From positions 1 to 38,767 of the forward strand of contig SUVU01000009.1 of the NCBI GenBank assembly GCA_015061865.1: a stretch of DNA of 38,767 nucleotides, given 5' to 3'. The DNA is from Lentisphaerota bacterium. Its GTDB lineage: Bacteria > Verrucomicrobiota > Lentisphaeria > Victivallales > Victivallaceae. The position numbers and the translations under genes were made by a program. Below the pieces are notes generated by a model, which saw nothing but the letters and a program-made list of their open reading frames with translations, was not told the origin of the DNA and made no database searches. Below are positions 36,764 through 38,767 of the stretch, one piece after another (position 1 is the stretch's first letter; the number at the start of each line of letters is the position of its first letter).

Positions 36764-36792
36764 TTGACTATTGTCCAAAGATGGGTTATTTT
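36764..36792 (+). promoter_or_regulatory. Predicted promoter of the membrane complex operon
   Basis: TTGACT (36764-36769), 17-bp spacer, TATTTT (36787-36792). Divergent from glnS. The leader is about 53 bases and ends in AGGAGG eight bases before the ATG. Confidence 0.5.
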
Positions 36793-36851
36793 AACAAACG
36801 TACAAATGGCATCAACCGAAAACAATCAAGCAAAAACAGGAGGTATTTCCG

Positions 36852-37421
36852 ATGGCTCTCAACGAACTTTTTTCCAACCCCAAAAAACGCAAACTTCTGC
36901 TTATTATCGCCGCGGCGCTCATCATCGGTGCCGTATTCACCATCTGGGTCAGTTATGCTTTTAAAACCAATGCCGGATTCAAATCCCTGTTCATGGCTGC
37001 CGATTCCCAGGTCATCGGCGAAACTGAAACCGGCGAAACGCTGGCGGATAAAGCTGAATTCACCGCCAAAGTTTCGTTGTGGATCTTTATTTTCATCACG
37101 CTGCTGCAGCTGATCGCTTTCTGTATCTGCTATGCGGTCATGAGTACGATCTCCGCCAGTGAAGATCCGGTCAAACTGAAACTGCGCAGTCTGGAAAATG
37201 CGGAAATTTTCTTTGACATTCCGCTTTACTTCGGTCTTTTCGGCACGGTTTCGGCGTTTCTGGTGATGACCTTTTCACCGCAGAGCAGCCGTCTGATCGC
37301 ATACAGTTCCACGCTGATCGGTATTCTTTTCAGTCTTTTTTTGCGTCTGGCGCTGCAATATCCGCTGCGCAAACGTCTCGTCCGCATGGATGCTCTGGAA
37401 GATAAAGGAGCTGACAAGTGA
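36852..37421 (+). CDS. ExbB/TolQ/MotA-like small membrane protein
   Basis: A 189-residue protein with four predicted membrane segments: about 15-37, 73-97, 123-141 and 148-168. The third begins FGLFGTVSAF (G128-V133), which resembles the GLxGTV motif of ExbB/TolQ/MotA proton-channel subunits, and the fourth, AYSSTLIGILFSLFLR, has the conserved small T...G pattern of their last helix. It lacks the large cytoplasmic loop of true ExbB; a ~40-residue acidic loop (38-72) sits between the first two segments. AGGAGG lies eight bases before the ATG. Its stop overlaps the next gene's GTG (GTGA), whose product has an Asp in its single membrane segment, as ExbD/MotB-type partners do. The family call is an inference from pattern and pairing. 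Confidence 0.5.
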   Translation: MALNELFSNPKKRKLLLIIAAALIIGAVFTIWVSYAFKTNAGFKSLFMAADSQVIGETETGETLADKAEFTAKVSLWIFIFITLLQLIAFCICYAVMSTISASEDPVKLKLRSLENAEIFFDIPLYFGLFGTVSAFLVMTFSPQSSRLIAYSSTLIGILFSLFLRLALQYPLRKRLVRMDALEDKGADK

Positions 37422-38767
37422 ATAAAGCTATTCTTATCGTCATCTGCGACTTCCTCGTCTCGGCGATGCTGACGATGATGACCGGCATGGTTCCGGCTCA
37501 CAGCGGCGGTACCGGAGTGGGGTTGGATGAAAAAACCACCAAAGTTTTGCTGCGCGAACTTGACCGCCAGAACTCCGAATTGGAGGCTCTGCGGGCAAAA
37601 TTGCGTGAAACCGTGGAAAAACTGGGCATGACTCCGGAACGGGAAGCCGAATTGCGCCGGCTGGCAGCAGAGCTTGCCGCCAACAGAGTTCAGCGGCAGA
37701 AATTGCTGGCTGCCCAAAACGCCACCGCCAAAAACACCGGCGTCCTGACTCCGGAAGAATTACAGCGCCGTCTGGATGCCGAAATGATCAATAAAACCCG
37801 TCTGGAAATCGAGCTGAAAGACAGTCAGACCGATCTGGCGGCAAGCCGGGCAAAAGCCGGCGATATTTCCAAAAAATTGCAGGAGACCACGGAACAGCTG
37901 GTCAAAACTTCGGAAACACTGCAGGGTGAATTGCGGGAGATCAGACGTGAAGCCTCCGCCCAGCGTGAGGAGCTGTCCGGCGAGCGCCGCAAACACGATG
38001 AGACCAAAGCCAAACTTGAGCGCGCACAAAATGCCCATTCTGAAACCAGAATCGCTCTGGCACGGGTCGAGAGTGAACTTGATTCCGAGCGCCGCAGCGC
38101 CCAACAGCAGCAGCAGGAAGCCAAAGCTGAAGTCAAACGGCTCAGCGATGCCCTCGGCAAAAGCCGCGGCACCGGCGAAAAGCAGCTGCGGGAGATCGCC
38201 ACTTTGCGCGGCCGCTTGAGCGAACGGCAGAAAGAACATGCCACCGACCGTGACCGGATCGGACTGCTGGAACGGCAAATTCTGGTGGAACGGATGAAAA
38301 GCGCCGAGGCTAAAGGCCGGGCGGAAGTGGTGGAAAACACGTTAAAATCCACCGTCGCCGAACTCTCTAAAATCCGGGCGCAGGAACAAGTCCAGATGCG
38401 GGAAAAGGCCCAGGCGCAAGCCAAACTTGAAGCGGCGCAGAAAATGCTCGCTGAAAAAGGCCGCCCGGTCGATGTGGCGTTGCAGAGCTATGCCAAAGCC
38501 ATCGTGAACGTCCGCTGTGAAGTCAGCGAAAAAACCGCTTTCCGCACCCTTACCGGCAAAAGTGAAAGTTTCTATCCGGTGGTGGATTTCGGCGGCAAAA
38601 CGATCCTCGTCGGCTTGCTGAACCGCTTCGCCGGGGATGAAAACGTCGCTTTGAGCTTCAAAAACATCATCAATGTAAAATTCACCGCTTCCTCGCCGCT
38701 GGGTGGGAACAGCAAAGCGCTGACCGGAGCGATGTATCTGCCCAACAGCAACCGCCGGATCGCCGGA
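37418..38767 (+). CDS. Membrane-anchored long coiled-coil protein with intramembrane Asp, C-terminus beyond window
   Basis: Translated from the GTG that overlaps the previous stop; 450 codons are present and the frame is open to the edge. A very short lead is followed by one membrane segment (about 4-24, AILIVICDFLVSAMLTMM) with D11 inside it, then a ~310-residue Glu/Lys/Arg/Gln/Ala-rich coiled coil (about 45-345) with no Pro-rich breaks. From about residue 348 a globular beta-containing domain starts (VDVALQSYAKAIVNVRCEV, later VVDFGGKTILVGLL). The topology resembles ExbD/TolR/MotB, short inside and large tail outside, but with a far longer rod. Function unknown; it probably forms a complex with the preceding membrane protein. 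Confidence 0.7.
   Translation, partial: MNKAILIVICDFLVSAMLTMMTGMVPAHSGGTGVGLDEKTTKVLLRELDRQNSELEALRAKLRETVEKLGMTPEREAELRRLAAELAANRVQRQKLLAAQNATAKNTGVLTPEELQRRLDAEMINKTRLEIELKDSQTDLAASRAKAGDISKKLQETTEQLVKTSETLQGELREIRREASAQREELSGERRKHDETKAKLERAQNAHSETRIALARVESELDSERRSAQQQQQEAKAEVKRLSDALGKSRGTGEKQLREIATLRGRLSERQKEHATDRDRIGLLERQILVERMKSAEAKGRAEVVENTLKSTVAELSKIRAQEQVQMREKAQAQAKLEAAQKMLAEKGRPVDVALQSYAKAIVNVRCEVSEKTAFRTLTGKSESFYPVVDFGGKTILVGLLNRFAGDENVALSFKNIINVKFTASSPLGGNSKALTGAMYLPNSNRRIAG

Follow-up and report, generated by a model that had tools for sequence, protein, structure and literature searches.

What is encoded by the two overlapping genes that end a contig of a Lentisphaerota genome? 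The contig is SUVU01000009.1 of assembly GCA_015061865.1 (C117 of this draft genome), and all of its 38,767 nucleotides were analyzed; we call this stretch the window. A sequence-only reading had proposed a two-part membrane machine, with an ExbB/MotA-like protein (A) coupled to a rod-shaped partner (B) carrying an aspartate inside the membrane. Its observations are confirmed and its interpretation is partly supported. Our favored conclusion, which we hold with moderate confidence, is that A and B assemble in the inner membrane into a motor-like complex driven by ions, and the pair is best classed with the ion-driven motors, outside any named family. The elements of the locus, with the basis of each in brackets, are as follows.

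36838..36843, + strand: ribosome-binding site AGGAGG of gene A (sequence)
36852..37421, + strand: gene A, 189 amino acids, predicted four-helix membrane subunit, MotA/TolQ-like (sequence, model, structural match)
37215..37274, + strand: third membrane helix of A, residues 122-141 (conservation, model helix, hydropathy)
37287..37349, + strand: fourth membrane helix of A, residues 146-166 (conservation, model helix, hydropathy)
37418..37421, + strand: GTGA overlap, stop of A and start of B (sequence; the same 4-base overlap occurs in 51 of 113 adjacent pairs)
37418..38767, + strand: gene B, first 450 amino acids, rod partner, cut by the contig end (sequence, alignments)
37427..37483, + strand: single N-terminal membrane helix of B, residues 4-22 (hydropathy)
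37448..37450, + strand: codon GAC of intramembrane Asp11 of B (invariant, 115 of 115)
37529..38467, + strand: long helical rod of B, approximately residues 38-350 (AlphaFold model of B from the relative Victivallis vadensis, alignments)
38468..38767, + strand: first part of the C-terminal domain of B, predicted trypsin/HtrA fold (model, structural comparison; continues on contig C163)

Gene A begins with the ATG at 36852, not at 36764, and its stop codon (37419-37421) overlaps the GTG start of B (37418-37420), just as had been noted. At residue 450 B is interrupted by the end of the contig, so that only about 100 of the roughly 250 residues of its C-terminal domain lie in the window. The last 48 residues of the window's B recur, with one difference, on contig C163 of this genome, which then completes the protein.

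The two genes are linked. We surveyed 387 genomes from 197 genera of the phylum, a sample with many members closely related to the window. Of 60 relatives 39 had A, which also occurred on 34 named contigs, and a profile made from 31 A proteins had a match in 126 of the 387 genomes, one in each, covering 56 of the 197 genera. A profile of the C-terminal domain of B alone also matched in 126 genomes, in two of which, the window's included, the domain appears as two pieces on different contigs. These independent searches have 125 genomes in common, with one exception each way. In the genome with a match to A only (G067), B is truncated where the contig stops (locus L209); the other (G023) has a match to B only. 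Of the 126 genomes in which A was matched, 68 belong to the window's order, and within one family of that order (f4) some genomes have both A and B while others have neither. The closest named relatives of the window are Lentisphaeria genomes from metagenomes, mostly of animal gut, together with Victivallis vadensis, whose cultured strain DSM 14823 carries the family (locus L054). V. vadensis sits in Lentisphaerota according to NCBI; GTDB places this group in Verrucomicrobiota.

Gene order was examined in 115 loci, comprising the window, the 34 contigs and 80 other genome regions, all of which contain A by construction. B follows A on the same strand in 113 of them. The spacing is tight, with a 4-base overlap in 51, a gap of no more than 50 bases in 105, and a largest gap of 427 bases. 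Our procedure for finding B required a hydrophobic start containing an aspartate, and could in principle miss a partner lacking it. It missed B at two loci (L140 and L164), and in both genomes B lies elsewhere, again with aspartate at position 11.

Asp11 is thus present in 115 of 115 B proteins. There is no other invariant column in the first 26 residues, and a lysine or arginine occurs within residues 2-4 in every B protein. Residues 4-22 form the only hydropathic segment of B within the window. B has the one N-terminal membrane helix with a conserved aspartate that marks partners of ExbD/TolR/MotB type. The sequence-only reading had described just such a helix with a buried D11, and in homologs the residue is conserved and the genes are found together.

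The last two helices of A carry the hydroxyl residues expected of the MotA/TolQ/ExbB type. The third contains D122, Y126 and the sequence GLFGTV (residues 128-133), within which lies T/S132, and the fourth contains A150, Y151, S153, T/N154 and G157. The GLFGTV segment had been pointed out before, as had the T/G-rich last helix, within which SRLIAYSSTLIGI lies. In 113 aligned A proteins L125, Y126, G128, A150, Y151 and G157 are kept throughout, and Q86 and D122 in all but one (112), which is a fragment. Position 132 is T in 102 and S in 11, and position 154 is T in 86 and N in 27. These two positions are spaced by 21-23 residues, fitting two helices with a tight turn. Moreover, residue 154 of A and residue 16 of B switch together in the 113 pairs, T occurring with A or S in 86 of 86 and N with N or T in 27 of 27. 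This may reflect a single event, as the change marks one clade.

In the model of A there are helices at 61-102 and 107-138 with a four-residue join between them, and the chain ends three residues past the last helix with no C-terminal tail. Proteins of the MotA/TolQ/ExbB family have a large cytoplasmic segment between helix pairs, as can be seen in the Escherichia coli sequences; no such segment is seen in the model of A. At 46 of 54 more distant loci the open frame gives a longer A, of 522-782 amino acids (for example L131, L133 and L137-L146), and the N-terminal extension adds two hydropathic segments in all four cases checked. A is short in the remaining eight, and three long A proteins scanned against Pfam gave no match.

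Structural comparison of A placed TolQ in the top row, with PomA and MotA also among the rows, and unrelated helical proteins mixed into the list. By sequence the similarity of A to known motors is weak. No significant family was found in Pfam, NCBIfam or PADLOC for A or B of the window, and relatives gave only scattered weak matches confined to single or few members. A search of the PDB sequences with A gave no match at E 10. PF01618 found three other loci in the same genome at E 0.001 and did not find A, nor was it among the 25 of 53 families listed for members of alignment A1 or the 25 of 79 listed for members of A4. When the 113 A cores were aligned by hhalign with an ExbB/TolQ alignment the score was 28.1 (P 0.0027, hhalign probability 11%), compared with 14.2 for a reversed A profile and 10.8-15.6 for four other membrane clusters. 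Against 126 single sequences TolQ scored 28.6; unrelated proteins scored up to 24.9, many family members came out lower, and controls and signal overlap. In the hhalign alignment GLFGTV of A falls opposite the GLFGTV of TolQ, and STLIG of A opposite ATAIG.

The C-terminal domain of B, which we call the head, had been described as unrecognized, and this no longer stands. On VIA-align comparison of the B model, all 50 structural rows listed are chymotrypsin-fold proteases by title, and the modeled domain has the trypsin/HtrA fold. No OmpA-like peptidoglycan-binding domain of the MotB/ZorB type was seen among those rows. The catalytic His-Asp-Ser of HtrA and trypsin is missing. No column of the head has a catalytic histidine, the best reaching 5 of 42, and the invariant Gly-Asp is followed by F, L, I or Y in 39 of 42 sequences, with no nucleophile there. 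At one other column (residue 500) a serine is present in 32 of 42. A GNSGGP-like motif is a signature of trypsin-type proteases, and none was found in 113 B proteins scanned, of which those at L001 and L209 are cut short. As the catalytic residues have been lost, the head probably binds a partner rather than cuts.

Between the membrane helix and the head lies the rod. The AlphaFold model of V. vadensis B has long helices with breaks near 70, at 102-111 and at 249-251, and in 52 B sequences the rod before the head measures 232-380 residues. The longer ones would exceed the distance between the membranes if fully straight, and rods must therefore bend, fold back or tilt. The V. vadensis coil peaks at a period of 3.5 residues, a value that carries no shuffle test. 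Coiled-coil matches of B (SMC, tropomyosin, LmuB and others) were set aside as compositional.

These observations suggest a mechanism. Several A subunits, five by analogy, would be arranged around a dimer of B, enclosing its N-terminal helices. A putative ion would come in on the periplasmic side, be bound in the membrane by Asp11 of B, and exit along a hydroxyl/amide ring of A made of T/S132 and T/N154, with S153 and Q86. The cycle would move B relative to A, as we infer by parallel with MotAB and ZorAB, in which a ring of Ser/Thr lies against the critical aspartate of the inner subunit (PMC9389320, PMC11890865). The rod may then transmit the movement into the periplasm, to the trypsin-fold head and whatever load it bears, where the head would probably bind its partner. 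In Victivallales a kinase, described below, probably regulates the complex or signals its state.

Support for an ion-driven motor comes from the co-occurrence in 125 genomes and the adjacency in 113 of 115 loci, from Asp11 in every B and T/S132 and T/N154 in all 113 A proteins, from the coupled change of A154 and B16, and from TolQ as the best structural match together with the aligned motifs. Two points weigh against the coil as first observed. The test for a 3.5-residue periodicity over the whole coil in the window's B is negative, 215 of 1000 shuffles reaching the observed value, and AlphaFold confidence in V. vadensis B is low at 231-350 (block means 47-74). Flow of ions through A and B is something that we infer. 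The coiled coil of about 310 residues claimed earlier survives as a long helical rod in the V. vadensis model and fails on periodicity in the window, and the ion-driven device reaching across the periplasm is supported as to linkage, Asp11 and the TolQ match, while ion flow and movement would be as proposed above. An unpowered rod is a somewhat unlikely alternative. A would then anchor B, the role of Asp11 and of A's polar residues being just to hold the helices together, and a dead head would link the inner membrane to the wall or outer membrane. A head without a catalytic histidine column or a nucleophile after Gly-Asp, a long rod suited to a spacer and an A without cytoplasmic domain would all fit, but an invariant buried acid and the kept hydroxyls of A are much for a mere anchor, and the best structural relatives are ion-driven. 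That A belongs to some other kind of four-helix proteins, such as one related to KwaA of the Kiwa defense system, with a convergent TolQ-like motif, we consider improbable. The PADLOC KwaA profile did match, and unrelated helical proteins occur in the structural list; yet that match is weak and confined to 3 of 31 A members (best E 0.00029), and A is single-copy where found, across its 56 genera. No match to A was found in the viral contigs searched, nor in plasmids searched with the A core of one relative. It is scarcely credible that the first helix of B is a cleaved signal peptide releasing a secreted head, as a very permissive cleavage motif near residues 21-28 in 67 of 115 B proteins has to be set against an invariant aspartate within the hydrophobic core, a charged residue directly after the helix in many members, and the linkage to A.

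A kinase gene adds a further alternative. Of 59 Victivallales loci, 49 have a Ser/Thr kinase gene as the next gene after B; a distance rule accounts for 48 of these, and L053, where the reading frame begins too early, is the other. In the window's genome B on C163 is followed by a 718-amino-acid protein with a Pkinase domain (PF00069, E 1.9e-38) and then, by inspection, an ABC-F ATPase-like protein. The kinase is likely to have a membrane segment. In the kinase at L216:1439-3595 and its relatives, HCD or HGD replaces HRD at many loci and HRD stands at others, and the copy in the window's genome has DWG rather than DFG. A and B might thus be a sensor and not a motor, the head binding a ligand or strained wall, the rod and helices relaying this to the cytoplasm, and the kinase being the output. 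We regard this as unlikely. Eight Victivallales loci without the kinase keep A and B (one more locus ends before its position), and in the few kilobases retrieved for each of the 54 loci from outside Victivallales there was no kinase match. The kinase is therefore an add-on, a lineage-specific partner to a core of A and B.

Few ion-driven motors of this sort are known: MotAB, ExbBD, TolQR, GldLM and AglRQS (PMC9389320), and ZorAB (PMC11890865). If our interpretation is true there is a further one in the 126 genomes, unmatched in the family libraries searched, and a motor core can do without a cytoplasmic domain and drive a new kind of head. The pair offers a clear genetic test through one aspartate codon. 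A fuller picture is possible, and we put it forward tentatively: a new family of ion-driven motors, single-copy in those genomes of the phylum that have it, whose minimal four-helix channel would turn or pull a long rod, with a dead HtrA-type head as mechanical hand or sensor in the periplasm and kinase control in Victivallales. No description of the pair turned up in the titles and abstract openings searched, and TolQ, ExbB and MotA are not mentioned in the available part of the Verrucomicrobium spinosum essential-gene paper (PMC12283558).

How does the pair compare with known systems? TolQ/TolR and ExbB/ExbD are also adjacent genes, with GLFGTV and T-x-I-G in the last two helices of the channel subunit, and in the E. 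coli sequences TolR and ExbD, like B, have one N-terminal helix with an intramembrane aspartate. A differs in its extra first helix, the lack of the large cytoplasmic segment and the lack of a PF01618 match, and B has a long rod and trypsin-fold head in place of a short domain. The window's genome also has PF01618 genes with ExbD/TolR-like and TonB-like neighbors, by inspection (L065 and L066, on contigs C158 and C105), so A/B is additional to these. A third locus (L067, contig C113, about 42741-43082) has a Trypsin_2 protein beside a PF01618 MotA/ExbB protein with weak similarity to ZorA, and two coiled-coil proteins, each with an aspartate near an N-terminal hydrophobic helix. A trypsin fold thus stands beside a motor-like protein twice in this genome.

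MotA has four membrane helices. A/B resembles MotA/MotB and PomA/PomB in this number and in the aspartate of the partner, but A lacks their large cytoplasmic domain, and the head of B is not their OmpA-like peptidoglycan-binding domain. Zorya has a C-terminal tail on ZorA and the genes zorC, zorD and zorE. ZorA/ZorB shares with A/B a motor-like core plus a long added coil; here the coil is on B, as the sequence-only reading had correctly remarked, A has no tail, the recurrent neighbor is a kinase gene, and PADLOC listed no Zorya model for A or B. GldLM, too, bears no evident resemblance to MotAB in sequence, and the four periplasmic domains of GldM make up a shaft 18 nm long (PMC9389320). This is a precedent for an inner subunit as a long periplasmic shaft, built otherwise than the coil and trypsin-fold head of B. 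Finally, B differs from HtrA, DegP and DegS in its lost histidine and GNSGGP-like motif, and in the rod that joins its head to an aspartate-bearing membrane helix.
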